Shown here: positions 5,560 to 20,081 of the stretch, piece by piece
How the letters are laid out: every line of letters begins with the position of its first letter
Numbering within the stretch: the stretch's first letter is position 1
IMG/VR virus record: IMGVR_UViG_3300032241_000675
Location: 1 to 20,081 of that record
Source: a virus
Strand: one strand, 5' to 3'
Length of the DNA stretch: 20,081 nt
Translations under genes and position numbers: made by a program
The notes under the pieces: model-generated
What the model was told of the DNA's origin: nothing
The model's input: the letters and a program-made list of their open reading frames with translations, nothing else
Databases searched by the model: none

Positions 5560-5560
5560 G

Positions 5561-6262: not shown

Positions 6263-6881
6263 AAATTATGAAATGATTGATAACGGCCATTGGTATCAAA
6301 GCAAAATAACTGGCGAACCAATGAAGTATGATGAGAATTACATTCAGTATTATACTAGAATGGACAATTCTATGTCCAAACTAAGATACAATTTAATACT
6401 GAACCACATAGGTATTTTTAAGTCGGTATTGGATGTTGGTTATGGTGACGGCAATTTCTTACAATATTGTTTCAATAGAGATAAGATTTGTTATGGCCAT
6501 GATATATCAAATTATCCTTTACCTGGAGGAATAGATTTTGTAAAAAATGTAGGTGATGTTGAAGTAGATGTTATAACTTTTTTTGATTCACTAGAACACA
6601 GAACCGAAAAAAACCTTATTCCTTTTTTGAAAACTATTCAAGCAAAATACATAGTGGTATCTTTACCTTGGATGCACCAAAGTCTAGGTGCTGAATGGTT
6701 TAAAACATGGAAACACAGAAAAGAAAACGAACACATACATCATTTTGATTACGTTGGTTTAATTAATATATTAAAAGAAGCAGACTTTGATTTAATCTAT
6801 ATTGGTAACGAAGAAGATGTTATTCGTAAACCTGTAACATACTTACCTAATATTTTAACTGTGATTGCAAGAAAACGATGA
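6255..6881 (+). CDS. SAM-dependent class I methyltransferase
   Basis: A 208-residue protein of the small Rossmann methyltransferase type. Motif I is SVLDVGYGDGNFLQYC (residues 57-72, with the glycine loop at 62-66) and binds S-adenosylmethionine. VDVITFFDSLEH is the motif IV region, and YIVVSLPWMH follows in the position of strand 5. This pattern fits the Methyltransf_23-type enzymes often found in polysaccharide clusters, where they cap or decorate sugars. The HxHHFDY segment near residue 160 is also common in that group. It overlaps the previous gene by eight bases, with AAAGGA six bases before the ATG, and its stop overlaps the next start (ATGA). The likely substrate is a sugar in the cassette product, inferred from context only; a nucleic acid substrate is not excluded. 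Confidence 0.88.
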   Translation: MIENYEMIDNGHWYQSKITGEPMKYDENYIQYYTRMDNSMSKLRYNLILNHIGIFKSVLDVGYGDGNFLQYCFNRDKICYGHDISNYPLPGGIDFVKNVGDVEVDVITFFDSLEHRTEKNLIPFLKTIQAKYIVVSLPWMHQSLGAEWFKTWKHRKENEHIHHFDYVGLINILKEADFDLIYIGNEEDVIRKPVTYLPNILTVIARKR

Positions 6882-7687
6882 GTGACATTACTATTGTAAC
6901 AGCCTTCTTTGATATAGGCCGTGGTGATTGGAGTCCAGACAAAGGTCTTCCACATTATCTACAAAGAACAAATGATACGTATTTTGAAAGGTTCTCACAC
7001 CTCGCCAGTTTAGATAACAATATGGTCATTTACACATCACAAGATTTAGCTGAGCGTATTTCTCAGTATAGAATTGGCAAGATGGATAAAACTAAGATTG
7101 TTTGTTTTGACTTTGCAAATGCGTTTGATAAAGAACGTAAGATAATTCAAACAGTACAATCAAATATTGAATATAGAGCTAATATTAATCCAATTCAATC
7201 TAAAAATCCTGAATATTGGAGTGTTGATTATGTACTAGTTAATTATCTGAAATCATCTTTTGTAAATCATGCTATCAATAATGGATTGGTTCCAGATGAA
7301 TTGGTTGCTTGGTTAGATTTTGGTTATTGTCGTAGTAAAGACATTCTTTTTGGAGTTACAAAGTGGCAATATCCTTTCAATAAAAATTTAATTCATGTTT
7401 TCAGTATTAAAAACTTTAAAGAAGGAAGAATGATACAAGATATCATTTTTAATAATGATGTACACATTACTGGTCCACATATTATTGCAAGTAAATCTAT
7501 GTGGCCTAAGTTAGATATTATGATTAATCATCACTTTTTGTTTTTGGCAAATAGTAATTTGATGGATGATGATCAAACACTTTTATTGATGTCAACACTA
7601 TCAAATCCGGAAGTGTTTGAAGTACACAAAGTTTCACCAAATGATTGGTTTGTTATTTTTAGGGATTATAATGAAAATATATCTTAA
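6878..7687 (+). CDS. HtrL/YibB-like protein of glycan clusters
   Basis: A 269-residue protein resembling the HtrL/YibB family, which is encoded in bacterial lipopolysaccharide core and other surface-glycan loci and is thought to be glycosyltransferase-like; its reaction is not established. Family-type segments are the N-terminal ITIVTAFFDIGRGDW, then YFERFSHLASLDNNMVIYTS, PEYWSVDYVLVNYLKSSFV and LVAWLDFGYCRS, where the WLDFGY acidic position is the candidate active-site strand. There is no signal peptide or membrane helix. The start overlaps the methyltransferase stop by four bases, and the end overlaps the next gene by 17 bases. Finding a host-type LPS-locus family in a phage cassette supports the idea that the products act on surface-type glycans. 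Confidence 0.8.
   Translation: MSDITIVTAFFDIGRGDWSPDKGLPHYLQRTNDTYFERFSHLASLDNNMVIYTSQDLAERISQYRIGKMDKTKIVCFDFANAFDKERKIIQTVQSNIEYRANINPIQSKNPEYWSVDYVLVNYLKSSFVNHAINNGLVPDELVAWLDFGYCRSKDILFGVTKWQYPFNKNLIHVFSIKNFKEGRMIQDIIFNNDVHITGPHIIASKSMWPKLDIMINHHFLFLANSNLMDDDQTLLLMSTLSNPEVFEVHKVSPNDWFVIFRDYNENIS
7661..7665 (+). promoter_or_regulatory. Ribosome binding site AGGGA deciding the start at 7671
   Basis: AGGGA lies five bases before ATG 7671. An in-frame ATG at 7617 would give 18 extra residues (MKYTKFHQMIGLLFLGII) that read as an out-of-frame copy of the upstream gene's coding sequence. The protein starting at 7671 begins directly with the expected first strand, MKIYLNSTANLGDF. I therefore prefer 7671. 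Confidence 0.6.
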
Positions 7688-8408
7688 TTCTACGGCAAAT
7701 TTAGGAGATTTCTTAAATTCTATGCCTGTGTTATCCGGTTTATCTAAACAGAATGAATTGGAGTTAATTGTCAGAAATGAAATGAAGAAGTTTAAAGGCT
7801 TCGAAGAATTTCTAGTTTATCAAAATCTATTTAAAAGTGTGGACTTTGATAATGACATCTTTATGTATGGAAATATCACATTGTTTAGTTCTTGGACTAG
7901 AGAAGACCAAAGTAATTCAAATCGTCCAATTGAAACTTGTAGATACGAGAACTGGATGAGAGACAAATACCCTGATATTAAATTTGAAGTTGATGATGAT
8001 TTTGAAATCAAATTCCCTCAGTTTGATTTTGTTGTAAGAAGCGATGTGCCTTATGTTGGTGACAGATGGAATATAAATGATATTGATTCACGTAGAGAAA
8101 GTAATGTTTTAACACATCTTTCAAAATATGAATTTATAGACTATAATAAAGATTTGTTGGAAAACTGTTATACCATAAAAAAATCTCCTAAACCTTTTAT
8201 TACTAATCTGACTGGTGTTGCTGTGTTGGCCGACTTATTGAACAAAGAACAATTAGTAGTTTGGAAACAAGAAGATTTTAAACCAGAATTTAGAAAAGGT
8301 GATAACATTGATTGGGATAATGGTAAAGATATCAATAAAGTTTTTGCCAAACATTTTTACGGTAACAGAAAATCTAAATTAGTACACGCAAATGATTTAC
8401 AATATTGA
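7671..8408 (+). CDS. Short GT-B/GT9-like protein (glycosyltransferase-related), first of a pair
   Basis: A 245-residue protein. The beginning, KIYLNSTANLGDFLNSMPVLSGLSKQ, has the pattern of family 9 (heptosyltransferase-like) N-termini: a strand, then N-x-G-D-x-(L/I)-x-x-x-P-V-L-x-x-L. Residues 100-150 are acidic (KFEVDDDFEIKFPQFDF). FITNLTGVAVLADLLNKEQLVVW near the C-terminus resembles the part of GT9 enzymes where the donor site and the helix with conserved small residues lie, but the usual D-S/T-G-x-x-H motif is not evident. At 245 residues it is well short of the roughly 330-350 of GT9 enzymes. It may be a divergent, possibly non-catalytic partner of the next gene, with which it overlaps by 17 bases. 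Confidence 0.65.
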   Translation: MKIYLNSTANLGDFLNSMPVLSGLSKQNELELIVRNEMKKFKGFEEFLVYQNLFKSVDFDNDIFMYGNITLFSSWTREDQSNSNRPIETCRYENWMRDKYPDIKFEVDDDFEIKFPQFDFVVRSDVPYVGDRWNINDIDSRRESNVLTHLSKYEFIDYNKDLLENCYTIKKSPKPFITNLTGVAVLADLLNKEQLVVWKQEDFKPEFRKGDNIDWDNGKDINKVFAKHFYGNRKSKLVHANDLQY

Positions 8409-9093
8409 ACCCGGAACTTTTGGTGGTCCTGCTCGAAACGGAGATATAGTTGCCATCATCAATGTTATTCAACACTTAAGGTTTGCAAAACCAAATCTGA
8501 AGTTTCATATGAAACCTGGCACAATAAGTGCCGATGATTATTGTCAAAAGTTTTTTCAGTATCTTTGTAAAACAAATGATTTCTTTTCTCCAACACAAGG
8601 TACCGAATCTTTAAATTGGAGAAAAGTAAATTTATGGGACTTCCGTGATATAATTGGTGACAATGTATCAATCAAAAACCCAGACACCATGGTTGATAAG
8701 ATTGTTATCTTTCCCGTTACTGATGCACCATACAACACTTATCGCAATTGGTCTTCTGATGTTTTACCAAAAGTTATTGGTGAATTTAGTAGAGTAGAAT
8801 ATATGAATTACGAAAAGTTAATTTGTGTTAAAGAACCACTTAAAGAAAAATATGATGGTTGGACATATAGTACTGATATGGTAGAAAATATTCATCATAT
8901 TAATACAGCTAAAGTATATGTTGGTGGTGATACAGGAACTTCTCATTACACATGGTCACTTGACAGAGGACCAGAAACTATGATATACTACAACTCAAGT
9001 AGGGGACTAATACATACTTTACCTTTCTATATAACAAAAGGAAAAGGCGAATTAAGAACATACTGGTTGGACTTTGAAGGAACTAAATGGTAA
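8392..9093 (+). CDS. GT9-like glycosyltransferase-related protein, second of a pair
   Basis: A 233-residue protein with a GT-B/GT9 outline. The N-terminal segment GGPARNGDIVAIINVIQHLR corresponds to the G-D-x-(I/V) helix at the start of heptosyltransferase-like enzymes. The C-terminal AKVYVGGDTGTSHYTWSL corresponds to the conserved (V/I)G-x-DTG-x-x-H-x-A-x-x-L donor-binding motif. Between them, KIVIFPVTDAPYNTYRNWSSDVLPKVI resembles the linker strand and the P-x-x-x-W segment. It is about 100 residues shorter than the family norm. No convincing ribosome binding site precedes the ATG; the 17-base overlap with the upstream gene suggests translational coupling. The predicted role is sugar transfer to the cassette glycan, with low certainty about donor and acceptor. 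Confidence 0.72.
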   Translation: MIYNIEPGTFGGPARNGDIVAIINVIQHLRFAKPNLKFHMKPGTISADDYCQKFFQYLCKTNDFFSPTQGTESLNWRKVNLWDFRDIIGDNVSIKNPDTMVDKIVIFPVTDAPYNTYRNWSSDVLPKVIGEFSRVEYMNYEKLICVKEPLKEKYDGWTYSTDMVENIHHINTAKVYVGGDTGTSHYTWSLDRGPETMIYYNSSRGLIHTLPFYITKGKGELRTYWLDFEGTKW

Positions 9094-9758
9094 GTGTGAC
9101 AGTTATAGATTCTCTATATTATGATTTAAAACCACTTAAAAAAACATTAGAAATTTTAAGTAATAAAATCAATAGAGTTCATTGGTTTAGTGACATTCCA
9201 TTTCCAGAAAAACCATTTCATGTTCCTGTTACATGGACCAAAATATCTAAAATTAAAAACTACAATGATGAGTATGGTTACATAACTTTGAAATTATGTC
9301 CAAGTGTTTGTACGGAAAATTATAACCTCATCATACACAATGACGGATTTGCAGTTAATGCGGATGCTTGGACTGATGAATTTTTAGAATATGATTACAT
9401 TGGTGCAACTTGGACTGATGGTTTTGTTGGCAATGGAGGATTCTGTTTAAGGTCAAGAAAATTGTATGATGCTTTATTGGATATGAATATACCTTATGAC
9501 ACAAACAGTTATAAAGATTATTTTAACGGAGATTTTTATTCAGTTATATCCAATGGTAATAAACTTGTTCCTGAAGATAGTATAATATGTAAGATACATA
9601 AGAGTACATTAGAGACAAAATATGGAATCAAATTTGCTCCACAACAAATAGCAGATAGATTTAGTATTGAGCACAATATGAGTTCTCCTTGGTTGGGGAA
9701 AAGTTTAGGTTTTCATGGTAAACATGGAATTCACAAATATTATGGAGTGGATTTATAA
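9087..9758 (+). CDS. DUF5672-like protein, probable glycosyltransferase relative
   Basis: A 223-residue protein. The segments NLIIHNDGFAVNADAWTDEFLEYDYIGATW and GNGGFCLRSRKLYDAL match what I remember of the DUF5672 family, found in polysaccharide loci, giant viruses and phages and regarded as GT-A-like. HNDG (residues 84-87) would sit at the place of a metal or nucleotide acidic motif, and GNGGFCLRS (115-123) is the family signature loop. PEDSIICK near residue 160 supplies a second acidic pair. The ATG overlaps the preceding stop by seven bases and is preceded by GAAGGA with a five-base spacer. Its stop shares a base with the next ATG (TAATG). The reaction is unproven; the family match is the firm part. 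Confidence 0.82.
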   Translation: MVSVTVIDSLYYDLKPLKKTLEILSNKINRVHWFSDIPFPEKPFHVPVTWTKISKIKNYNDEYGYITLKLCPSVCTENYNLIIHNDGFAVNADAWTDEFLEYDYIGATWTDGFVGNGGFCLRSRKLYDALLDMNIPYDTNSYKDYFNGDFYSVISNGNKLVPEDSIICKIHKSTLETKYGIKFAPQQIADRFSIEHNMSSPWLGKSLGFHGKHGIHKYYGVDL

Positions 9759-11053
9759 TGGGTGTAGTATTAGATTCTAGAGATATGGTCAATTTTTTGG
9801 CCCAAGAAGACATCAAATATGTAAAAAATTATGACAATTATGTTGATGGAGAATTTGTACAATACTCTGGTCAATTGTGGGATTACAAAGAAATTACGGC
9901 TGCAATCAATACATTACTTTATGGTAAGTGGATTGTTGCTGGAGAAAAAGTAGCACAGTTTCAAATCAAATTCAGTAAAAGATTTAATGTAAATCATTCT
10001 CACATGGTCAACTCAGGCAGTTCGGCCAATCTGGTATTGATTACTGCCATGAAAAAGAAATTCAACTGGCAGCCTGATGATGAAGTGATTGTATCACCTG
10101 TTGGGTTTCCTACAACGATTGCACCTATCGTACAAAATGGTTTGAAACCAATTTTTATTGATATAGAATTGGATACATTAAACTTTGATGTTAATTTAAT
10201 TGAAGGAAAGATTACATCTAAAACAAAAGCTATTTTTGTTTCACCTGTATTAGGTAATCCGCCTGATATGGATAGACTTGTTGATATCTGTAATAAACAT
10301 AACCTTGTTTTGTTGGGAGATAACTGTGATTCTTTAGGAACAAACTGGAAAGGTAATTTAATTACTGATTTGTACTATGCTTGGACCACATCATTCTATC
10401 CAGCACACCACATATCTACAGGTGAAGGTGGCATGGTTTGTTCAAATGATGAAGATTTTATCAATCAAGCCAGAAGTATTTCTTGGTGGGGTCGTGATTG
10501 TTATTGTGTCGGTTCAAACAATCTATTAGAATGTGGAACTTGTGGGAACCGTTTTGACAAATGGTTGGATGATTTTGATGGCATCATTGACCATAAATAT
10601 TTGTTTACCAATATCGGTTACAATTTAAAACCATTGGACTTACAAGGTGCTATTGGTATTGAACAATTGGCTAAGTTTGATATGTTAGAGTCTAAACGTA
10701 GAGAGTATAAAAATATCATTCAAAAGTTTATTGAAGACAATATCAAAGGAGTCCGTGTGATTGATGCATCACCAAATTCTGATCCTTCTTGGTTTGGTGT
10801 TCCTATTTATTGTGAAACTCAAGAAATCAAAGAAAAATTTGTTGCTCACCTAGAGAAAAACAAAATTCAAACCAGAAATTACTTTAGCGGCAATATTCTT
10901 TTACATCCAGGTTATAAACACCTAGATGATGCTAAAAAGTATACAAATTCAAATTTGGCTTTGAGCAATGTATTTTTTGTTGGTTGTTCTCCTCTTTATA
11001 ATCAAAAAGTTCTTTCATATATTGAAAAAGTGTGTAAAAAATGGAACGATTGA
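9758..11053 (+). CDS. rfbH: PMP/[2Fe-2S] sugar 3-dehydrase, RfbH/E1 type (DegT/DnrJ fold)
   Basis: A 431-residue enzyme of the fold-type I aminotransferase superfamily. E1-type members do not transaminate: with PMP and an iron-sulfur cluster they remove the C3 hydroxyl of CDP-4-keto-6-deoxyglucose, on the way to 3,6-dideoxyhexoses. Supporting residues are SGSSANL near 85-91 and GDNCDSLG around 188-195. In SFYPAHHISTGEGG (212-225), His217 occupies the place of the PLP-binding lysine, as in RfbH, AscC and ColD. C190 and C248 are separated by 57 residues, followed by C250, C259 and C262 in GRDCYC and CGTCGNRF, closely resembling the cluster site of E1. HKYLFTNIGYNLKPLDLQGAIG is the standard DegT C-terminal block. 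The spacing between C250 and C262 is about four residues longer than in the RfbH sequences I remember. No E3-type reductase is encoded nearby, so electrons would have to come from the host or from outside the window. Confidence 0.9.
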   Translation: MGVVLDSRDMVNFLAQEDIKYVKNYDNYVDGEFVQYSGQLWDYKEITAAINTLLYGKWIVAGEKVAQFQIKFSKRFNVNHSHMVNSGSSANLVLITAMKKKFNWQPDDEVIVSPVGFPTTIAPIVQNGLKPIFIDIELDTLNFDVNLIEGKITSKTKAIFVSPVLGNPPDMDRLVDICNKHNLVLLGDNCDSLGTNWKGNLITDLYYAWTTSFYPAHHISTGEGGMVCSNDEDFINQARSISWWGRDCYCVGSNNLLECGTCGNRFDKWLDDFDGIIDHKYLFTNIGYNLKPLDLQGAIGIEQLAKFDMLESKRREYKNIIQKFIEDNIKGVRVIDASPNSDPSWFGVPIYCETQEIKEKFVAHLEKNKIQTRNYFSGNILLHPGYKHLDDAKKYTNSNLALSNVFFVGCSPLYNQKVLSYIEKVCKKWND

Positions 11054-11853
11054 TTAATGTATTAGGTGCTGGGTTTGTTGGAGGTCGTTATTGTGAATTG
11101 ACACCCAACACAATCGTAAATGAAAGAAATGATTACACGATTAAGGCAAATGATGTATTATATTTCATTTCAACCATAGACAACTATAACGTACATACAA
11201 ATCCTTATCTGGACATAGATACAAATCTAACCACATTGATTAAGACGTTACAGACTTGTAAAGAAAATACAACCTTCAACTTTATTAGTTCTTGGTTTGT
11301 TTATGGTAATGTGCCATTGCCAGCCAAAGAAGATTCTTATTGTGATCCAAAAGGTTTCTATTCTATTACTAAACGTGCTGCGGAACAACTATTGATTTCA
11401 TATTGTGATACTTTTGGTATTAAATATCGTATCATTAGATTAGCCAATGTTTTGGGTAAATCTGATAGTAAAGTGTCCAAGAAAAAGAATGCTTTACAGT
11501 ATATGATTAATGAAATCAAAAACAATAACGATGTTAATTTATATGATGGAGGAGAAATATTTAGAGACTACATTCATGTTGATGATGTAGTGAAAGCGAT
11601 TAATCTAATACTTGATAAAGGTAATTTGAACACCATCTATAATATAGGAAATGGTGAGAAAGTATATCTAAAAGACGCTTTGTCTTATGTTAAAGATAAA
11701 GTAGGATCCTCCTCAAAATTCAATATTATTAAATCGGTAAAGTTCCATCAGACGGTTCAGACAAAAAATATGGTGCTTGACATTTCAAAAATACAACAAC
11801 TAGGGTATAAACCTAGTATGGATATTTGCCAAATTTTAGATTCTGTGTTATAA
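11041..11853 (+). CDS. NAD(P)-dependent sugar epimerase/reductase, extended SDR
   Basis: A 270-residue extended short-chain dehydrogenase. The dinucleotide-binding turn is GAGFVG (residues 9-14), and the catalytic pair is Tyr107-x-x-x-Lys111 in FYSITKRAAEQ. NFISSWFVYG supplies the upstream catalytic Ser region, IIRLANVLGK the post-active-site strand, and FRDYIHVDDVVKAI the conserved substrate-side block; NIGNGEKV follows. It overlaps the 3-dehydrase gene by 13 bases. In O-antigen clusters the enzyme after RfbH is an SDR such as abequose or paratose synthase, which reduces the C4 keto group of the 3,6-dideoxy intermediate, so the same role is inferred here. It is slightly shorter than typical epimerases because the region after the first strand is compressed. 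A GDP- or UDP-sugar epimerase cannot be excluded. It is the last gene of the glycan run; a TAA-TAG double stop follows. Confidence 0.85.
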   Translation: MERLINVLGAGFVGGRYCELTPNTIVNERNDYTIKANDVLYFISTIDNYNVHTNPYLDIDTNLTTLIKTLQTCKENTTFNFISSWFVYGNVPLPAKEDSYCDPKGFYSITKRAAEQLLISYCDTFGIKYRIIRLANVLGKSDSKVSKKKNALQYMINEIKNNNDVNLYDGGEIFRDYIHVDDVVKAINLILDKGNLNTIYNIGNGEKVYLKDALSYVKDKVGSSSKFNIIKSVKFHQTVQTKNMVLDISKIQQLGYKPSMDICQILDSVL

Positions 11854-11912: not shown

Positions 11913-11920
11913 TATAAATA
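11913..11920 (+). promoter_or_regulatory. T4-type late promoter core TATAAATA
   Basis: An exact match to the T4 late promoter consensus TATAAATA, which is read by host RNA polymerase carrying phage gp55 with gp33 and the sliding clamp. It lies in the 115-base intergenic region, the only substantial one in the window. In T4 the core spans about -13 to -6, so transcription would start near 11926-11927, giving a leader of about 43 bases before ATG 11969. It would drive the operon of the ligase-like protein, the fusion enzyme and the following virion-type genes. Confidence 0.72.
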
Positions 11921-11968: not shown

Positions 11969-13147
11969 ATGGGTCGTTTTTTACAATTTCTCAAGGAAGA
12001 AGCCGAAGGTGATGGCAAATTAAAGCACATTACTCATCCGGAGGATCGTCCTTTGATGCACGGAGCAAAAGGCTTCAAACGTGCTGTTGAGGTATTGAAT
12101 AAGGCGCACAACCACATCAAGTCTGGTGGCCACAGTTCTGATATGACAATGAAATATGATGGTTCGCCATCTTTAGTTTTTGGTCATCATCCAGAGACTG
12201 GTAAATTCTTTGTGGCGTCCAAGTCCGCTTTCAATAAGAATCCTAAGATCAATTATACCTCGGCAGACATTCAAAAGAACCATGGCCATGCTCCTGGTCT
12301 TGTAGATAAATTACAGGCATCACTTACACATTTAAAGAAAGTTGCACCAAAGAAAGGTGTATATCAAGGCGATGTTATGTTTTCTCACGGTGATGTGAAA
12401 CATAAGTCGGGCGGAAAAGCATCATTCACACCAAATACAATCACATATACTGCTAAAGGCGATGAAGCTGAAAAAGTTAAAAAAGCCAAATTAGGTATAG
12501 TTGTTCACCAACAATATCATGGCGACACATTAGATAATATGAAGGCGGATCCTCATCCAGACCATCACAATTTTGGTCATCATCCAGATGTGTGGCATAA
12601 ATCAGCGGAATTGAACACTAAAAATGTTCATTATTCCGAAGAGGATCAAAATGAATTTCATAAACATATGGAAGCTGCCAAAAAGATACATGATGCTCAT
12701 GGTAAAGAAATGTATAAGGCTACTGAACCACATTCTGGTGAAGCTGGTCATTTGGCAACTTATATTAATCACACGGTTCGTACAGATGAGAAACCAACAC
12801 CTGAAGGTTTGAAAAAACATATAGCGGATAAGTATAAGAAAAGTATTGAAAAGTTAAAAACTCCTGCAGCTCAATCAAAAAAAGCAAGTGAATTGAAATC
12901 ACATATGGATTACATTGATGCTAACAAAAAACATTATAAAGCTGCATTAGATATGCACCAACATTTAGAAAAAGCAAAAAACGTTTTGGTTCGTACATTG
13001 AACCAAGCACCAGGAGGTCTAGAACATCATATTAATGATAAACCAACCGATCCAGAAGGTTATGTTGTCAATCATGCTGGTGAACCTGACAAATTGGTCA
13101 ATCGTAAAGAATTCGCCAAAGCAAACTTACTTAAAGTTAGAAAATGA
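11969..13147 (+). CDS. Ligase-like covalent nucleotidyltransferase (DUF6267-like phage protein)
   Basis: A 392-residue protein rich in His and Lys. It carries, in order, the motifs of the DNA/RNA ligase and capping-enzyme superfamily. Motif I is KYDG at 62-65 (Lys62 would carry the AMP), a following SKSAF resembles a motif Ia-type segment, YQGDVM at 132-137 is motif III-like, GIVVH at 176-180 is IIIa-like, and PEGYVV at 362-367 is motif IV-like. About 180 residues, mostly charged helix (coiled-coil-like), are inserted between IIIa and IV, which is unusual. I believe this corresponds to the phage family DUF6267, from memory. The N-terminus MGRFLQFLKEEA resembles the leader of three other proteins here and T4 capsid-targeting peptides, so it may be packaged and processed after Glu10 or Glu11. 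GAGAAGG lies nine bases before the ATG. The substrate (RNA, DNA or protein) is unknown. Confidence 0.75.
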   Translation: MGRFLQFLKEEAEGDGKLKHITHPEDRPLMHGAKGFKRAVEVLNKAHNHIKSGGHSSDMTMKYDGSPSLVFGHHPETGKFFVASKSAFNKNPKINYTSADIQKNHGHAPGLVDKLQASLTHLKKVAPKKGVYQGDVMFSHGDVKHKSGGKASFTPNTITYTAKGDEAEKVKKAKLGIVVHQQYHGDTLDNMKADPHPDHHNFGHHPDVWHKSAELNTKNVHYSEEDQNEFHKHMEAAKKIHDAHGKEMYKATEPHSGEAGHLATYINHTVRTDEKPTPEGLKKHIADKYKKSIEKLKTPAAQSKKASELKSHMDYIDANKKHYKAALDMHQHLEKAKNVLVRTLNQAPGGLEHHINDKPTDPEGYVVNHAGEPDKLVNRKEFAKANLLKVRK

Positions 13148-15084
13148 AATCATTCCTACAGTTAGTACAAGAAGAAGAGCAAGCACATAAACCTGTGGTG
13201 ATTGCCTTTGGTCGTATGAATCCACCAACCACGGGTCACTTAAAGTTGATTGATAAAGTGCGTGAAGTGGCAAATAAACGAAAAGCCAAACACAAAGTAA
13301 TTGTTTCACATTCACAAGACGCCAAAAAGAATCCATTATCAGGCGAACAAAAAGTTAAACACTTAAAAAGATATTCGCCTGGTACTCATTTTGAAGCATC
13401 TTCAAAAGATAAACCAACGATTCTACACCACGCTGCAGCATTACACGCAACCGGACACGACCACTTAACAGTTGTTGCTGGTTCAGATCGTGTTAAAGAG
13501 ATGCATGACTTATTACACAAGTATAATGGTGTAGAAGGCCGCCATGGTCATTACAATTTCAAAAAGATTAATGTTGTTTCTGCTGGTCACCGTGATCCAG
13601 ATGCCGAAGGCGAAGAAGGAATGTCTGGCACTAAGATGAGAGAACACGCCAAGAATAAAGACTTCCATGAATTTAGAAAAGGTGTTCCACATCATGTATC
13701 AGATGCTCATGCTAGAGAATTGATGAGAGATACTCGTAAAGGTATGGGTTTAAATGAACAAGTTGACCGTGGAATGTTTAAGGCTGTGTTTGTTACAGGC
13801 GGACCAGGTTCTGGTAAAGATGTAATCATCCGTGAAGCAATTGCCGAAGCTAAAGCGGTAGAATTAAATGTAATTCAAGCTATTGATTATTTGGCAGACA
13901 AACAGAAACTGTCCGAAAGAACAAACGATTACCGTAGAGAAACTATTCGTAATCGTGGTCCTATAATCATCAATGGACCTGCTGACGATAACTCTATATC
14001 TCATATTAGAGAAGAACTAGAAGAACTTGGATACGAAACAATGATGATATTCGTACATACGTCAAATGAGGTTTCTAAAGAGAGAAATGAAAAATTAAAT
14101 CGTATGATGTCCGAATCAATTCGTTTAGATAAATGGAAAGAGTCACAAAAATTTCATGATGCGTTTGTAAGGGAGTTTAAAACAGCATTAACCTTTGATA
14201 ACAGTTATACTTATGCTGAAATTGAAGACCAAATTACAGAAACCTATGTCAAAGTTAACGAATTTATAGATAATAAATCCTACAATGATATCGCATTTTC
14301 ATGGTTGGAAAGCCATAATAAATTAAATATCAATGAAACTTTTAATTATTTGTTTAAGGAAAAAACTGATGTTACAAAAGATAGCAAATCTATTCAAGCT
14401 CAAACCACGAAACGTTATAACCCAAGATTTATCAAAGCCGCAGGACCTGCAGACATCTCTCCTGAAAACTCCGGAAAGAGAAATCCCCTTGGCCAAGGAG
14501 ACCAAATTAAAGGAAACTCCTTCCCAAGAAAAGATCCAAACGGAAGAGGTCACAGCGGTGGCGCATGGTCAGGAGCCTACAGCACCGAAGAAGCCGGCCC
14601 AACGCTCAAAGTCAACCCGCCAAAGAAAGAACCAAACTTCAACTACGACAACGACAAAATCAAAAAGCAGAAAAGGGGCAACACCTCGTTAAGTGCTGGT
14701 CGTGTTGGTAGACCAGATGGCATTGGTTCTACATATGATACCAGAGCAGGTGGTCAAGGTGCGGCCGCTGGAGCAGGTTTAGGTCAAAATATTGGTGAAA
14801 GCGAACACTTCAGTAACGCTCAGAGCACGACTGCTCTACCAGGAAGTTCTGCTATGTCACCAAATCCACTAAGCAGTGCTTGGGATCCAGAAAAGAAAAA
14901 GTCATTCAACAAGCTTAGAAAAACCATGAAAGAATGGAATGGTTTCATAAATGATGTTGAATCTGGTGTTGGTGGTACATTAGGTGGTGCAGATAATAAA
15001 GAAAAGATGCAGTCTTACCGAGATAACGACCAAAAAATGAAAATGGCAGGAATATTAATTAAAAAGAAAAAGGGAGCAAAATAA
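13144..15084 (+). CDS. Adenylyl/cytidylyltransferase-P-loop kinase fusion with low-complexity tail
   Basis: A 646-residue multidomain protein. Residues 1-12 (MKSFLQLVQEEE) are a capsid-targeting-like leader. Residues 17-205 form an HxGH-type nucleotidyltransferase: GRMNPPTTGH at 23-32, VVAGSDR at 110-116 and MSGTKMRE at 160-167, the last matching the (I/M)SGTxxR motif of NMN/phosphopantetheine adenylyltransferases. Residues 212-400 are a P-loop kinase-like domain with GGPGSGKD at 219-226 and a downstream IIINGPADD strand; the layout is AAA/zeta-toxin-like. Residues 415 to about 600 are Gly/Pro/Ser-rich and probably disordered, and the tail ends in a Lys cluster. The start overlaps the previous stop (ATGA), and the stop shares a base with the next ATG. 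In T4-like phages NadR/NadV-type enzymes serve NAD metabolism, so an NAD or nucleotide role is plausible but unproven. Base composition changes sharply at 14455-14690. Confidence 0.82.
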   Translation: MKSFLQLVQEEEQAHKPVVIAFGRMNPPTTGHLKLIDKVREVANKRKAKHKVIVSHSQDAKKNPLSGEQKVKHLKRYSPGTHFEASSKDKPTILHHAAALHATGHDHLTVVAGSDRVKEMHDLLHKYNGVEGRHGHYNFKKINVVSAGHRDPDAEGEEGMSGTKMREHAKNKDFHEFRKGVPHHVSDAHARELMRDTRKGMGLNEQVDRGMFKAVFVTGGPGSGKDVIIREAIAEAKAVELNVIQAIDYLADKQKLSERTNDYRRETIRNRGPIIINGPADDNSISHIREELEELGYETMMIFVHTSNEVSKERNEKLNRMMSESIRLDKWKESQKFHDAFVREFKTALTFDNSYTYAEIEDQITETYVKVNEFIDNKSYNDIAFSWLESHNKLNINETFNYLFKEKTDVTKDSKSIQAQTTKRYNPRFIKAAGPADISPENSGKRNPLGQGDQIKGNSFPRKDPNGRGHSGGAWSGAYSTEEAGPTLKVNPPKKEPNFNYDNDKIKKQKRGNTSLSAGRVGRPDGIGSTYDTRAGGQGAAAGAGLGQNIGESEHFSNAQSTTALPGSSAMSPNPLSSAWDPEKKKSFNKLRKTMKEWNGFINDVESGVGGTLGGADNKEKMQSYRDNDQKMKMAGILIKKKKGAK

Positions 15085-16877
15085 TGTTCACAAAAAACGT
15101 AGTATCTCAGTCAATGATTGACGCAGTTAACGCTGTGATAGGAGAAACGCCTAAGAAACCTAAAACACCAAAAGTTCTAAAAGAAGAAATCTACAGCTTC
15201 AATATTGACCCACATACAGGTCAAATGAAAGATGAAGTTGAGGTGTTGATATCTGGTGACAACGTTAAACTTAGAAAAAAACAAATCGTAATGATTGAAG
15301 AAGGCAAAAAGAAAATGCTTAGTGACGCTGACATGGATGAAACGGGTTTTCACAAAGCTGCTCATGCTGCCAAAAAAGCCAATCAATCTCATTTTGAATT
15401 CATGGGTAAAAAATATCCTGTGACCGCAAAGTCTCAAGCAGAAGGTTACGTTGATGATATCGTTGCAAAAGCAAGAGCAAGTGGAATGAATGCCAAAGTT
15501 GTCACAAAAGCCGACAAAGAAAGAGATTTGCAGGCTGTGATAGATAGACAGAAAAAAGCAAAAGAAAAAGCCGCAAGTAATCCACCAAGTACTAGCATGA
15601 TTGGAAAAGGCCGAGATAGTTTTGGTCCAAATAAAGGATATGGTCAAGGTCGTTATATGGGTGATTCTGTTGAGATTGATGATGATGTGTTAGATGAAAC
15701 TACCGGTGTAACTGATTACAATCCAAAAAGCCAAGGTGGCACAAGAAAAGAACTATTAGCAAAATATTCTAAATCTGGTGATCCTAAACACGCAGAAGCT
15801 GCAAGAAAAGCAGGTGCAACACAATCAGAATTAAAAGCTGCATCAATGAAGAAAGAAGGTACATCATTTAAAGACCGTCTACTTGAAGCCTACATGGACA
15901 AAAAAGACAAAGGCGATATATTAGATATGGATGAATCCGAGATGACTGATGCTCAAATGAAAAAACGTGAGAAGATTGTAATGTCAATGAAAGATGGCCA
16001 AGCAGGATTTAAAAAGAGATATGGTAAAAATTGGAAAAATGTAATGTATGCTACAGCTACTAAGCAGGCGATGAAAGAAGAAGTTGAAGAATTAGATGAA
16101 GAGCATTCTGAAAAAGAAGTTAAGATGGCTATTGGTATCCTTAATGACAAAAGATATAAAGGAGGTAATTTGAGTGGTGCTGCTAAGGCTATTGAAAAAA
16201 TGAAACCTGGTCTTTCTAAGCATCCTGCTGTGAAAAAAGCCATGCAAAAAGCAAATGAAGAATATGAGTATATGATGGAGAAAAATGAATCTCACACTCA
16301 TGCAGCTCACTATGAAAATGACAAAGGTGAATGGACTGGTATGAATTTGTTAGTCGCTAAAGATGATGAGGATGCTATTCGCCAAGCACACGAAAAATGT
16401 AAAGAGGGTTGCCGACTTTCTAGAGTGGAAAAACATATACCGGTTAAAGAAGGTTGGGAAGATATGATGAAAGCTGTCAAAGACCGTGCAGGTACACAAC
16501 CATCTGGTGGTTCAGGTGTAAAACAAGGTTCACGTTATGGTGGTTCTAAACAAAAAGAGAAACCAGAACATGATGAACCAGAAGATAAAAAAGTCAAAAA
16601 AGAAGCCGTAGACCCAAAAGTTAAGACTGTGGATATGCTACGTGGTCGTGTTAAGAAGCCTAAAGACTTTCAAGACGGCAACGAACACAGCTCAGCTAAG
16701 ATTAAATTAGCTGCTGAAGAAATGGATGAAACATTCAAAGGACCTGAGTCTGGTTCTGGTGTAGGTGATAATCCTTTTATTACTAGTGAATCTAAGCCAA
16801 TGAAAAATGCTAAAGAATTGGCTAATTCAACAATGAAACGAATCAAAACAGAAATGTTGGGAAAGATTTCCAACTAA
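15084..16877 (+). CDS. Modular charged virion-type protein
   Basis: A 597-residue, Lys/Glu-rich, largely disordered or helical protein without enzymatic motifs. It starts MFTKNVVSQSMIDAVNAVIGE, a helix of the type seen at the start of other phage structural proteins. Short modules follow: FKKRYGKNWKNVMYATATKQAMKE (around residues 310-335), THAAHYENDKGEWTGMNLLVAKDDEDAI (around 405-435) and EGWEDMMKAVKDRAGTQPSGGSGVKQGSRYGG (around 455-490). I recognise these as recurring pieces of proteins in marine T4-like phages. Acidic L-x-E strings (VLDETT, VEELDEE) could be prohead-protease sites. AGGGAG seven bases upstream supports the ATG at 15084, which overlaps the previous stop as TAATG. A scaffold/core, internal head or other virion protein is likely, inferred from the late context. 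Confidence 0.75.
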   Translation: MFTKNVVSQSMIDAVNAVIGETPKKPKTPKVLKEEIYSFNIDPHTGQMKDEVEVLISGDNVKLRKKQIVMIEEGKKKMLSDADMDETGFHKAAHAAKKANQSHFEFMGKKYPVTAKSQAEGYVDDIVAKARASGMNAKVVTKADKERDLQAVIDRQKKAKEKAASNPPSTSMIGKGRDSFGPNKGYGQGRYMGDSVEIDDDVLDETTGVTDYNPKSQGGTRKELLAKYSKSGDPKHAEAARKAGATQSELKAASMKKEGTSFKDRLLEAYMDKKDKGDILDMDESEMTDAQMKKREKIVMSMKDGQAGFKKRYGKNWKNVMYATATKQAMKEEVEELDEEHSEKEVKMAIGILNDKRYKGGNLSGAAKAIEKMKPGLSKHPAVKKAMQKANEEYEYMMEKNESHTHAAHYENDKGEWTGMNLLVAKDDEDAIRQAHEKCKEGCRLSRVEKHIPVKEGWEDMMKAVKDRAGTQPSGGSGVKQGSRYGGSKQKEKPEHDEPEDKKVKKEAVDPKVKTVDMLRGRVKKPKDFQDGNEHSSAKIKLAAEEMDETFKGPESGSGVGDNPFITSESKPMKNAKELANSTMKRIKTEMLGKISN

Positions 16878-16885
16878 GGAATAAC

Positions 16886-17776
16886 ATGACAGACAGAGCC
16901 AAAAAACTCAAAGATATTGTCAAACCTCGTGCTGCCTCTGGTGTATCAAACACCGATCCGGGACAGTTAGGACAATATTCTGCGACAAACTTAGTCAAAG
17001 AGTCTCCTTCTTTGGAAAAGTATCTTCAGTCTAGAGGATACAATCCTAAAACTGTGCCTAAAGATGTTAAAATAGCTCATTCAAAATCAAATGCGTTTAA
17101 GACATGGCAAATGCAACATATGTATGAGTCTGGCGAAAAAACTCCAATAGAAAATATACCAGCGGATAAAAACAAAACACCATCTGATGCAATGATGTCT
17201 TATGCAAGTAAAAACAAAGCAAAACATATTCCATCACACGAAATTAAAAATCCGCCAGGTACATTAAAGCGTGAAGATTTAGATTATATGGCACCTAAAG
17301 CTGACTTTGTGAAAAAAGAACTAAAAAGTATCTTGAATAGAAAAAAACCAGGTGAAATCAGTTTCAAAGAAGCAAGTGACATGATGGGTGATCCAAAATC
17401 TGCCACTATTAGTCCAGCAGACGGTTCACCAAAAGAAAGTGATGTACAACGCAAAATGTCTAAAAGAGCTAAATTACTTTTAGACATTAAGAAAAAATCT
17501 CTCAAAGAAGATTTATATGACCATGAAAAAGCAGATAAATCCGTAGCTACTTATGGTAAAAAACCAAAAATTGACACAGCTGAAAAATTTGATGAAACAG
17601 GCAAAGATAAACCGAAGGCAGCTGCTGTGATGTCCGGCGGTACTACATTAACTGGTCAAAGCCGTGATACAGTTGAAATTGATCCTGCTATGAGAGTACG
17701 TCCAGGTCAACCTGATCCTACCAAAGATAAGGATAAAGACAAGGACAAGAAAAAAGACGAGAAGAAAAAAGAATAA
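16886..17776 (+). CDS. Hypothetical late phage protein with Lys/Asp repeat tail
   Basis: A 296-residue hydrophilic protein. The N-terminal half contains YLQSRGYNPKTVPKDVKIAHSKSNAFKTWQMQHM, which looks like a small folded module (a basic helix ending in aromatic and Met residues). The rest is charged and probably flexible, with SDAMMSYASKNKAKHI and SFKEASDMMGDPKSATISPADGSP. The C-terminus from residue 280 is an almost pure Lys/Asp/Glu tail. AAGGA five bases before the ATG, overlapping the previous stop region, supports the start. Its stop lies inside the first of two late-promoter cores for the next gene. I do not recognise the family. It has no catalytic motif and is more likely a virion-associated or assembly protein. 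Confidence 0.72.
   Translation: MTDRAKKLKDIVKPRAASGVSNTDPGQLGQYSATNLVKESPSLEKYLQSRGYNPKTVPKDVKIAHSKSNAFKTWQMQHMYESGEKTPIENIPADKNKTPSDAMMSYASKNKAKHIPSHEIKNPPGTLKREDLDYMAPKADFVKKELKSILNRKKPGEISFKEASDMMGDPKSATISPADGSPKESDVQRKMSKRAKLLLDIKKKSLKEDLYDHEKADKSVATYGKKPKIDTAEKFDETGKDKPKAAAVMSGGTTLTGQSRDTVEIDPAMRVRPGQPDPTKDKDKDKDKKKDEKKKE
17723..17773 (+). repeat. Lys-Asp codon repeat at the 3' end of the preceding gene
   Basis: Four alternating Lys-Asp codon pairs (AAA/AAG with GAT/GAC) are followed by Lys/Asp/Glu codons up to the stop. The hexamer varies at the third codon positions, so it is a diverged purine-rich repeat rather than a perfect tandem array. It encodes a highly charged flexible tail. 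Confidence 0.7.
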
Positions 17777-17790
17777 ATAACCAATAAATA
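17772..17790 (+). promoter_or_regulatory. Tandem late-promoter-like cores AATAAATA
   Basis: AATAAATA occurs at 17772-17779 and again at 17783-17790, eleven bases apart (about one helical turn). Each differs from the T4 late core TATAAATA at the first base only. The first copy includes the stop codon of the upstream gene. Starts would fall near 17785 and 17796, giving leaders of about 27 and 16 bases that contain the strong AGGAGA site. This points to high late expression of the next gene. Confidence 0.55.
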
Positions 17791-17800
17791 CCTTATCACT

Positions 17801-17806
17801 AGGAGA
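17801..17806 (+). promoter_or_regulatory. Strong ribosome binding site AGGAGA
   Basis: AGGAGA lies five bases before ATG 17812. It is the most complete Shine-Dalgarno match I noticed in the window, where most genes rely on overlap with the upstream gene. It fits a product needed in many copies. Confidence 0.8.
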
Positions 17807-17811
17807 TAAAA

Positions 17812-18411
17812 ATGCCAGCATGGTCAAATACGGACAATCACAAAAACAAACCAAAGTTTGATGTGGAACGTGAAACAAGAGAAGTAGTTCAATTAACTAC
17901 TGCTAACACCACAAATTCGGGTAATACAGTAATTACATTTACTTATTGGGATGGAACAGCAAGTTCCAACCTATCTAATGTGATTGCAATAGGATATTAT
18001 TCAGCCTCAACTAATGTTGGCGCAAACGGTGTTTCGGGTTTCTTTAAATCTAATAACGCTATTACATCAATTAGTGGAAATAACGTTGTATTGGGTAGCG
18101 CTGTTTATGGTGCCATTCCAGCAGGAACAACCATAGAATTTGACAAAGCAATTGCTTGGAATTCTTCTAAAGCAAACGACTCAACATACAATGCTGATAC
18201 AGTACTTGTTACACCAACACGTTTGGCAAACAACACAGTATCTATGGGTAACATAGTTCCAGGTTGGGTGAACATTACCAAATCTAAAAATGGTGGTGCA
18301 GATGGCGCAGTTCGTTATCGTCTCGAAACTTTGGTCGCTCTCGCTAATCCAACAGCAGCTAATACAAACTCAGGCAATACAGGCTGGGGTCAAGCTTTCA
18401 CTGGAGTTTAA
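17812..18411 (+). CDS. Probable virion structural protein
   Basis: A 199-residue protein, rich in Ser, Thr, Asn, Gly and beta-strand patterns (TVITFTYWDG, NVIAIGYYS, NNVVLGSAVYG), which suits a small beta-rich capsid decoration or tail/baseplate protein. The N-terminus MPAWSNTDNHKNKPKFDVERE and the C-terminus RYRLETLVALANPTAANTNSGNTGW resemble a family of short structural proteins in marine T4-like phages, as I recall. There are no cysteines or enzyme motifs. It forms its own transcription unit: tandem late-promoter cores and a strong ribosome binding site in front, and a UUCG-loop terminator four bases after the stop. That arrangement, unique in the window, argues for high and independent late expression. 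The precise location in the virion cannot be told. Confidence 0.78.
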   Translation: MPAWSNTDNHKNKPKFDVERETREVVQLTTANTTNSGNTVITFTYWDGTASSNLSNVIAIGYYSASTNVGANGVSGFFKSNNAITSISGNNVVLGSAVYGAIPAGTTIEFDKAIAWNSSKANDSTYNADTVLVTPTRLANNTVSMGNIVPGWVNITKSKNGGADGAVRYRLETLVALANPTAANTNSGNTGWGQAFTGV

Positions 18412-18414
18412 TAC

Positions 18415-18435
18415 ATGGGGCTTCGGCCCCATTTT
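18415..18435 (+). terminator. Rho-independent terminator with UUCG tetraloop
   Basis: A seven-base-pair stem ATGGGGC (18415-18421) / GCCCCAT (18426-18432) is closed by the very stable C(UUCG)G tetraloop (18422-18425), and a short T tract (18432-18435) follows. It begins four bases after the stop of the structural gene and ends five bases before the next ATG. The T tract is short, so termination may be partial, allowing read-through into the downstream genes. Confidence 0.8.
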
Positions 18436-18440
18436 AAAAT

Positions 18441-18827
18441 ATGTTTGATTTATTGAATGAGGATAATTTTGTACTGTATGCAATGAAATGCTATGAAGCA
18501 CCTAATTGTGTTATGTCAGAATTTGAAGGAGATATTAAGAGAACTAAGTATGTGAAAAGACTTTTTAGAAAATATAAAGTTACTAAAGTACTTAAAGAAC
18601 GCCTAATACTCAATCACATTATATTATTGAATAATGTTTTTGGACCAGAACCAACGGCAAGAATATTATTCTATAAAATAGATGAACGAGACTATGATAT
18701 ATTGAAAACTTTTTTGTGTTACTTGAGCATCATGCCTGAAATGGTTTTTGGTATAAAAGGTAAGAATATAAAGTCATATGATATACCGATGGAATTAAAT
18801 GTCGCAGAGATATTAAGGAACTTATGA
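18441..18827 (+). CDS. Small conserved phage protein of unknown function
   Basis: A 128-residue, mostly helical protein. It starts MFDLLNEDNFVLYAMKCYEAPNC, continues with a basic region (FEGDIKRTKYVKRLFRKYKVT) and then LKERLILNHIILLNNVFGPEPTARILFYK. This run of segments is familiar from uncharacterised short proteins of T4-like cyanophages and their relatives, which supports it as a real gene. LILNHIILLNNVFG is a hydrophobic helix but has a charged context and is more likely buried than membrane-spanning. The ATG lies directly after the terminator hairpin and has no purine-rich ribosome binding site. The stop overlaps the next ATG by four bases. No function is known to me. Confidence 0.78.
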   Translation: MFDLLNEDNFVLYAMKCYEAPNCVMSEFEGDIKRTKYVKRLFRKYKVTKVLKERLILNHIILLNNVFGPEPTARILFYKIDERDYDILKTFLCYLSIMPEMVFGIKGKNIKSYDIPMELNVAEILRNL

Positions 18828-19324
18828 AGTCTTTCAAACAATTCATAAATGAAAAAGGCAGATGTTGGCCAGGTCACAGACCTGTTCCAGGTAAAAAGCC
18901 TTATTCTCCTGGTAGTTGTGTTAAAGAAGACCATGTTAAAGAATTGGAAGATGGTCTAAAGCAATTAGACAGTCACGACTATGACACAATCGATGGATTG
19001 ATGACGAAGATATCTAAGAAACACGGCATCACAGGAAAAGATTTACATAATGACTTTAAATCCAAACACGGCAAAACTCCAGATGATTGGATCAATGAAG
19101 ACTTACGCAAATGGTTTAAACAAGATTGGGTTCGTATGGACACCAAAGGCAATGTTAAAGGCCAATGTGCAAGAGATCCAGGTGAAGGTAAACCAAAGTG
19201 TCTACCTAGAGCAAAAGCAAACGCAATAGGTAAAGTTGGTAGAGCAGCTGCAGCACGAAGAAAACGCCGTGAGGATCCAAATCCAGAACGCCGTGGTAAA
19301 CCAATAAATGTTAGGACAAAGTAA
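18824..19324 (+). CDS. Small basic protein with capsid-targeting-like leader and paired Cys motif
   Basis: A 166-residue basic protein. Residues 1-10 are MKSFKQFINE, closely resembling the T4 internal-protein leader MKTYQEFIAE, with I-N-E as a candidate prohead-protease site. Residues 13-33 (RCWPGHRPVPGKKPYSPGSCV) hold Cys14 and Cys32 around a Pro/Gly/Lys-rich loop that I have seen repeatedly in T4-like marine phage proteins. The C-terminal region (WVRMDTKGNVKGQCARDPG, then PKCLPRAKANAIGKVGRAAAARRKRRE) is another recurring phage module with two further cysteines and a strongly basic end suited to DNA contact. The ATG overlaps the preceding stop, and its own stop is immediately followed by the next ATG. 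The likely role is a DNA-associated internal head protein; this is inferred, not shown. Confidence 0.8.
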   Translation: MKSFKQFINEKGRCWPGHRPVPGKKPYSPGSCVKEDHVKELEDGLKQLDSHDYDTIDGLMTKISKKHGITGKDLHNDFKSKHGKTPDDWINEDLRKWFKQDWVRMDTKGNVKGQCARDPGEGKPKCLPRAKANAIGKVGRAAAARRKRREDPNPERRGKPINVRTK

Positions 19325-20081
19325 ATGAAAAGTTTTAATCAATTCATAAATGAGACTCAAAATTTAGAAGAAAAAAATGTTCCCACAAGTCCAGAAAAAT
19401 GGGCTCGTGCTAAGGCTGCTGCAAAGTCTAAATTTGCTGTTTATCCTTCCGCTTATGCAAACGGTTGGGCTTCAAAGAAATACAAAGCAATGGGTGGTGG
19501 TTGGAGAAGTACCAAAGAAGAAGTTGAAGTTATTTGGGAAGCAAAAAAAGATGATGAAGAAATGCATGAAAATGACCATGAAGTAAAAGTATTTGATTAT
19601 GATACAAATTACTTTCACATCTGTCCAATTGCAACAAAATTATACAAAGATATTGAACATAAAGTAGAACCTGATGATTATGATTTAGTAGAAGGCATGG
19701 CCAAATTACAAGACTGTATCTTCTTTATTGAAAAACATCTCAAAGAGAAAAAGGGTTCACCAAAAGAAGATGATATGGGTTATCTTTTGATGGCACAGAA
19801 CATCAAAGACCAATTAGACCGTATGTTATCAATGACAACACCTGAGATGCGTATGGAACATGGTTATCTACAAGGTCATATTGAAACTATCAAAGAACTT
19901 CTTGATTGGGAAAATCGTAAAGAAGAATTAGATGAACAATATGAATGGTTGGAAGAATCAGCTGCATGGAAACGTAAAGAAGGTAAAAATCCTACAGGTG
20001 GACTAAATGCAAAAGGTATTGCCTCTTATCGTAGAGAAAACCCAGGTTCCAAATTAAAGATGGCTGTTACAGGTAAAGTAA
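19325..20081 (+). CDS. Capsid-targeting-leader protein with GGGW module (3' end outside window)
   Basis: A frame starting directly after the previous stop (TAA-ATG) and open for 252 codons to the window edge. Residues 1-10 are MKSFNQFINE, identical to the leader of the upstream gene at nine of ten positions. Residues 22-60 contain SPEKWARAKAAAKSKF, then VYPSAYANGWASKKYKAMGGGW, a module common in proteins of T4-like aquatic phages. Residues 75-210 are acidic and helical (KLYKDIEHKVEPDDYDLVEGMAKL, then GHIETIKELLDWENRKEELDEQYEWLEE), coiled-coil-like. From about residue 212, AAWKRKEGKNPTGGLNAKG begins another recurrent phage module, perhaps DUF6321. Adjacent placement and nearly identical leaders suggest coordinated packaging with the preceding protein. 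The function is unknown. Confidence 0.82.
   Translation, partial: MKSFNQFINETQNLEEKNVPTSPEKWARAKAAAKSKFAVYPSAYANGWASKKYKAMGGGWRSTKEEVEVIWEAKKDDEEMHENDHEVKVFDYDTNYFHICPIATKLYKDIEHKVEPDDYDLVEGMAKLQDCIFFIEKHLKEKKGSPKEDDMGYLLMAQNIKDQLDRMLSMTTPEMRMEHGYLQGHIETIKELLDWENRKEELDEQYEWLEESAAWKRKEGKNPTGGLNAKGIASYRRENPGSKLKMAVTGKV

Follow-up and report, generated by a model that had tools for sequence, protein, structure and literature searches.

A shared N-terminal decapeptide resembling the T4 capsid-targeting sequence on unrelated late proteins of a T4-like phage fragment

The phage genome fragment IMGVR_UViG_3300032241_000675 raises the question of why four unrelated proteins encoded in one region begin with similar runs of ten residues. 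The window, which is the whole stretch of DNA that was analyzed, is one complete IMG/VR record of 20,081 bp and represents a fragment of a phage genome. Its 22 genes comprise, from left to right, a DnaB-like helicase, a sugar-related gene block, and a cargo operon. The leaders are MGRFLQFLKE (11969..11998), MKSFLQLVQE (13144..13173), MKSFKQFINE (18824..18853), and MKSFNQFINE (19325..19354), all on the plus strand; translation of the window genes gave the same start codons and N-termini as a preliminary description of this DNA. The decapeptide is very probably a T4-type capsid-targeting sequence (CTS) addressing late cargo. The likeness to this sequence, proposed in the preliminary description, is borne out by the position and residue pattern of the leaders, by recovery of the T4 internal proteins without training on them, by a gp21-type protease encoded by relatives, and by the published detection of leader-bearing homologues in virions by mass spectrometry (MS).

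In T4, mutagenesis assigned targeting to residues 4 and 7 and processing to residues 8 and 10, and gp21 cleaves after L/I-X-E (PMC9026906). Among 35 DUF6267 homologues of the first leader-bearing protein, only M1, F4, F7, and E10 are fixed within the leader, while residue 8 is Leu or Ile. Accordingly, the entropy is zero at columns 1, 4, 7, and 10, reaches 0.19 bits at column 8, and ranges from 1.2 to 3.0 bits at columns 2, 3, 5, 6, and 9. An acidic linker of variable length follows the leader in these proteins. In the cytidylyltransferase family of the second protein (47 homologues), F4 and E10 are invariant, position 7 is occupied by L, I, T, or V, and position 8 by V, I, L, or Y; the strict L/I rule at residue 8 fails for part of this family. 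Of the T4 (L/I)-x-E rule invoked earlier for the four leaders, the exact form stands for FLKE and FINE (twice), and a loose form, with Val at P3, for LVQE. A matrix derived from the window's relatives alone placed IPIII, IPII, and IPI, in this order, at the top of the T4 50–100 kb stretch.

The motif is rare at other ATGs. The regular expression M.{1,2}[FY]..[FYL][ILVMF].E, run on 12 whole or long phage sequences, matched 6 of 7,306 internal ATGs (about 1 in 1,200) versus 4 of the 22 window genes (binomial P = 3.3e-9). The strict leader pattern was found 68 times in 80 related IMG/VR loci, the window included; every occurrence was on the coding strand, and a single one lay away from an open-frame start. 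IMG/VR was also scanned for one exact leader, MKTFK[EQ]F(hydrophobic)xE, and among the matches listed 80 of 87 had a stop or the contig end no more than 25 codons upstream. The search motif suggested in the preliminary description, with Q or E at position 6, turned out to be too strict and misses real cases, position 6 being free in most families. In S-PM2 the regular expression detected no leader, which shows that not every member of the family has the tag, and the leader-like sequences of HTVC008M (MKSFKDFQNVNE and MKTFTDFSTDLL) were weaker. The exact coincidence of the motif with the start codon could also reflect a feature of translation initiation or mRNA, or low-complexity chance. This explanation is hardly credible, since codon usage differs among the DNA of the four leaders, which means that conservation acts at the protein level, since the invariant amino acids are spaced by free positions, and since internal ATGs match so seldom.

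Beyond residue 10 the four proteins diverge, as was claimed earlier. By Pfam and PHROG their bodies are a DUF6267 domain, a CTP_transf_like domain with a P-loop domain, a CWPG/basic-module protein, and a DUF5872-like plus DUF6321 protein. A nuance concerns the last two, which align with shared PHROG families (727, 10346, and 3477), all long and multi-domain, but in different parts of them; their modules therefore occur fused elsewhere, and the two proteins are not copies of each other. Since their genes adjoin and share these families, one could suppose that all four proteins are duplicates of one ancestral gene that remained alike only at the N-terminus. Such an origin is very improbable: the bodies represent distinct Pfam families and predicted folds, the exact leader precedes at least 52 unrelated sequence families in IMG/VR among the matches listed, and DUF6267 orthologues exist both with the leader (the window, C48C1, and Melnitz) and without it (S-SZBM1, S-CRM01, and S-PM2).

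Expression and processing signals of the T4 type accompany the leader. The late promoter TATAAATA at 11913..11920 on the plus strand, upstream of the cargo operon, had been noticed before and is conserved; in 68 of 78 loci it precedes DUF6267 by 45–56 nt. In 882 kb, 91 copies of TATAAATA lie on the plus strand and 10 on the minus strand. The search for a gp21-like protease proposed in the preliminary description was uninformative in the record itself, which is no longer than the window. A gp21-type protease was found in all three long close relatives (G001–G003). It was present in 8 of 8 leader-bearing contigs over 58 kb, with one match below the family cut-off. The capsid proteins of G001–G003 carry L-x-E sites, SLNE and ALME, where these would be expected.

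Published virion proteomes of relatives link the leader to particles. For S-CREM2, 52 of 219 proteins are listed (PMC10665884, Table 3), and their N-termini were taken from the genome. The T4-derived motif M..[FYL]..[FYL][ILVMF].E is matched by six S-CREM2 proteins, five of which were detected in virions: the S-adenosylmethionine (SAM) hydrolase gp6, gp13, the kinase gp14, gp136, and the cytidylyltransferase gp154. All five are non-structural. The sixth match, gp175, is 55 aa long, has Leu4, and is not among the proteins listed as detected. The enrichment is significant among all proteins (P = 0.003) and among the non-structural ones (P = 2e-4). With the matrix of the window's relatives, the four highest-scoring annotated proteins of S-CREM2 all belong to the virion (Fisher P = 0.003). 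S-SCSM1_91 (NMNAT), which starts with MKSFLQFLKE, is labelled a virion protein in its record, and the cytidylyltransferase S-SZBM1_140, starting with MRFRQFIIE, was detected in virions; in the published lists of S-SCSM1 and S-SZBM1 the cytidylyltransferase is the only leader-bearing protein detected. A protein kinase in S-CRM01 virions is cited by PMC10665884, and the S-CRM01 kinase gene 130 begins with MISFDQFLSE.

Two proteins carry related motifs at an internal position. Virion-detected gp12 of S-CREM2 (L084:7704-10313, minus strand) contains RFASFMAE about 15 residues in, after a short N-terminal extension; its "Cas9" label is without Pfam support. The product of S-CRM01 gene 128 (L099:10394-10945) has a leader-like SLDSFIKE some 15 residues from its start.

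Several observations weigh against head targeting. A rank test of the matrix scores over all S-CREM2 proteins was not significant (P = 0.71), and only the top scorers are informative. The leader proteins S-SCSM1_30 (MKTFKQFMSE), S-SZBM1_191, and S-SZBM1_192 are undetected in the published proteomes; all three are of small size, and only 30 proteins are listed for S-SZBM1. Direct virion detection of a DUF6267 protein was likewise not found; S-SZBM1_141, which is leaderless, is undetected. LVQE of the 13144 protein departs from the strict L/I rule. The gp21 and gp23 genes are absent from the window because it is a 20-kb fragment. Finally, among published peptides none was found that begins after Glu10, and the S-CREM2 and S-SCSM1 authors themselves point out that soluble proteins of high abundance could be carried along when virions are purified.

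These last points would fit leader proteins that are abundant soluble late proteins co-purifying with virions, whose N-terminus serves otherwise, e.g., for localization in the infected cell. We consider this improbable. The residue pattern of the leaders and the determinants of the T4 CTS are the same, and a matrix from these phages picks out the T4 internal proteins. In addition, the leader is enriched among the non-structural virion proteins listed for S-CREM2, and contamination by itself would not lead one to expect this.

The range of proteins behind the leader bears on what packaging into heads might serve. Pfam was run on 82 proteins behind the exact leader among the matches listed, most of which had no Pfam match. 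At least 18 SAM lyases, at least four DUF6321 proteins, and at least two lytic-transglycosylase folds were recognized, along with at least one each of ADP-ribosyltransferase, zeta-toxin, glucosaminidase, and cytidylyltransferase. Enzymes of replication, transcription, or DNA synthesis were not recognized by Pfam among these 82 listed proteins, most of them without a Pfam match. The preliminary description had reasoned that the same leader on clearly early cytoplasmic proteins would speak against head cargo, and, as far as the data go, Pfam found none among the 82 listed. In one leader protein without a Pfam match (L252:5547-6194), the stretch HGNYGGFGNRGG..LDAAFQKHDTGYHY looks phospholipase-A2-like by eye.

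Delivery of the cargo into the host cell is a speculative suggestion that draws on analogy with the T4 internal proteins and on the host-directed nature of the domains. Alternatively, head targeting may be right while the proteins serve head assembly or DNA condensation within the particle. The basic modules of the 18824 and 19325 proteins, the small leader proteins that copy the capsid N-terminal arm, and the implication of T4 IPIII in assembly (PMC9026906) are all compatible with such a role. Nevertheless, we regard it as unlikely, although deserving more weight than co-purification, since many cargo domains (SAM lyase, ADP-ribosyltransferase, and zeta-toxin kinase) are host-directed and have no obvious use in a capsid.

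The arm-copying proteins include an overlooked gene of T4 itself. Gene 61.1 (NC_000866, 18966-19130, minus strand; L181), directly upstream of the primase gene 61, encodes 54 aa of unknown function with the leader MKTFKEFIKE. The 30 residues after this leader resemble T4 gp23 around and after its cleavage site, FGSFLTE|AEIGGDHGYNATNIAAGQTSGAV. The alignment score was 82, while the best shuffle reached 50. The cleavage position within gp23 is taken from the 65-residue length of the propeptide. Similar likeness to the arm of the phage's own gp23 was found in S-CRM01 (97132-97341, minus strand; 99 vs 51 in shuffles), virion-detected S-SCSM1_97 (83 vs 53), G002:60773-60964 (51 vs 45), a leader-bearing G023 protein (L251:992-1354; 74 vs 50), and S-CREM2 gp160 (95 vs 45), which is listed among the virion-detected proteins. 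Arms of the own phage score far above those of distant phages, and arms of near relatives score comparably. Where annotation was seen (T4, S-SCSM1, and S-CREM2), the gene is found at the gp61 primase gene or close to it. S-CREM2 gp160 and S-SCSM1_97 are without the leader. Alignment to the own gp23 revealed no arm mimic in HTVC008M, C48C1, S-PM2, S-SZBM1, G001, or G003 and a marginal one in Melnitz, and the Gp23 Pfam profile did not detect the small arm-mimic proteins. A second Gp23 profile match in G011 was rejected as an arm mimic because it is a different gp23-like fragment with no N-arm. Thus, T4 gp61.1 and its equivalents resemble, in sequence, copies of their own phage's capsid-protein arm.

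The first leader-bearing gene of the window (11969..13147, plus strand) encodes the DUF6267 protein (PF19782, E = 1.7e-97). Its sequence contains KYDGS (residues 62-66), EGYVV (363-367), and KLVN (375-378), and the KYDGS, EG[FY]V, and KLV[ND] motifs are invariant across the alignment of 35 homologues. KxDG, EGxV, and KxK are motifs of the covalent nucleotidyltransferase superfamily of ligases and capping enzymes, and the motif order in DUF6267 is reminiscent of RNA/DNA ligases and capping enzymes. The AF2 model has a pLDDT of 85, with residues 1-20 mostly below 50, which places the leader, and with it the linker, outside the confidently folded domain of the model. A fold search against PDB returned ligases and capping enzymes recurrently near the top, none at E<0.001. 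The ligase reading, based on motifs and sub-threshold fold matches, is therefore a lead rather than a result. The earlier claim that two of the four proteins carry enzyme motifs is well supported for the second one and holds to this limited extent for DUF6267.

The second gene (13144..15084, plus strand) encodes a cytidylyltransferase/NMNAT-like domain (PF01467, E = 1.6e-6) followed by a P-loop kinase-like domain. Its predicted model best matched the folds of ATP sulfurylase, small-molecule kinases, and NMNATs, so that a nucleotidyltransferase joined to a kinase-like domain is a well-supported prediction. The protein is homologous to three cytidylyltransferases reported as virion-detected in the published lists, S-CREM2 gp154, S-SCSM1_91, and S-SZBM1_140.

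The following genes, all on the plus strand, lie between the two leader-bearing pairs. The gene at 15084..16877 encodes a probable virion protein without a CTS-type decapeptide, whose N-terminal segment ends in ..AVIGE. It is assigned by gene position only, being placed after the cytidylyltransferase as are S-SZBM1_139 and S-SCSM1_92, which the published lists report in virions. Homologues of the operon protein at 16886..17776 (L003, L032, L049, and L075) show an (I/L)-x-E-like site at about residue 35-40. Thus, both proteins, in the window or in homologues, have N-terminal segments of other kinds that end in (I/L)-x-E-like sites. The gene at 17812..18411 probably encodes a virion structural protein; its place and size are those of S-SZBM1_136 and S-SCSM1_95, annotated and listed as detected virion proteins, and the likeness is positional only. 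Between this gene and the next one at 18441, a hairpin GGGGCTTCGGCCCC followed by T-rich sequence (window 18413-18436) looks terminator-like. The DUF7207 gene (18441..18827; PF23837, E = 7e-35) is kept at the same place in relatives and is a conserved marker separating the virion genes from the second leader-bearing pair.

The first member of this pair (18824..19324, plus strand; PHROG 727/10346) encodes a CWPG module and a basic C-terminal part, and a tblastn match to it (39%, 84 aa) lies within S-SCSM1_29, a virion protein. The second member (19325..20081, plus strand, cut by the contig end) encodes the DUF5872-like plus DUF6321 protein (PF19846, E = 2e-6); DUF6321 is also found in S-CREM2 gp137 and S-SCSM1_29, both virion-detected according to the published lists. 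Homologues of these two genes in L002:12098-12796, L003:18998-19285, and L075:18877-19890 have eroded leaders (MKTFKQIREKGRCW and MKTLKEVLGKIENL), and comparison of these sequences suggests that the tag is gained and lost. MKTYQEFISE, one residue off the T4 IPIII leader, was seen in uncultivated large phages L234 (979-2349) and L194 (1513-2436), on proteins that carry a CWPG-type module like that of the 18824 gene.

Outside the cargo operon, the protein encoded at window positions 1359-2468, adjoining the helicase gene, matched Druantia DruA above the family cut-off (PF14236, E = 2e-8), in a phage. The block at 3992-11853, which separates the helicase region from the cargo operon, consists of sugar- and nucleotide-sugar-related-looking genes, the content of which varies among close relatives.

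According to the proposed mechanism, the operon behind TATAAATA would make the cargo proteins late in infection. The leader would bind the prohead scaffold core by F4 and the hydrophobic residue 7, and a gp21-type prohead protease would cut after Glu10, so that the mature proteins stay in the head along with the DNA. The cargo would then probably be passed to the next host together with the genome and be active there ahead of phage gene expression. We infer that the window's own four proteins are present in heads; injection and the enzyme targets are speculative. Phages of this type probably carry a kit of ready-made enzymes, which they may, by analogy, deliver to the host with their DNA. For aquatic T4-like phages in general, we give about an even chance to a broader proposal: one exchangeable decapeptide brings into the host, ahead of any phage expression, a large and rapidly changing set of enzymes made beforehand, and one branch, T4 gp61.1 included, tags a small in-head protein that copies the N-terminal arm of its own capsid protein.

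The tag matters because the authors of cyanophage virion proteomes were unable to decide whether the enzymes listed were contaminants. It offers a criterion, readable from sequence, by which packaged cargo could be distinguished from free proteins and which is applicable to thousands of T4-like phages known from metagenomes. The tag also points to candidate anti-defence or takeover proteins (SAM lyases, ADP-ribosyltransferases, kinases, and DUF6267) that would act at infection, and names gp61.1 as an overlooked candidate in T4. A literature search by title and abstract start revealed no paper describing the tag in cyanophage-type phages.

Among known systems, the cyanomyovirus virion NMNAT-like and kinase proteins (PMC10665884, PMC9602691, and PMC9146016) are identical or homologous to those considered here and were detected by MS. 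However, these reports, in their accessible parts, present the detection without mention of the leader, and co-purification is named as a possibility in two of the three. Polyvalent proteins of phages and conjugative elements (PMC5512222) are also thought to be codelivered with DNA and aimed at host defences, and the ART-PolyVal domain is shared; they are long and multi-domain, whereas here separate genes have a common exchangeable decapeptide. T4 Alt, a packaged ADP-ribosyltransferase, is likewise enzyme cargo in the head, and a leader-bearing ART-PolyVal protein was found in IMG/VR (L215), but Alt loses a 7-residue N-terminal propeptide (PMC9026906). The closest counterparts are IPI, IPII, and IPIII of T4 (Straboviridae), which share an N-terminal leader of about ten residues with aromatic or hydrophobic residues 4 and 7, hydrophobic residue 8, and Glu10, as well as unrelated mature parts and a gp21-type protease, found here in relatives. 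T-even internal proteins have been described as diverse defence proteins with the CTS alone in common (PMC3012670). In contrast to them, the phage here is Kyanoviridae-like, some leaders have Leu at position 7, the window's proteins are known from genes alone, and the cargo includes large enzymes (392–821 aa) and very many families. The mechanism is that of T4, while its scale, with dozens of families and large enzymes, and the phage group exceed the T4 internal proteins as described.

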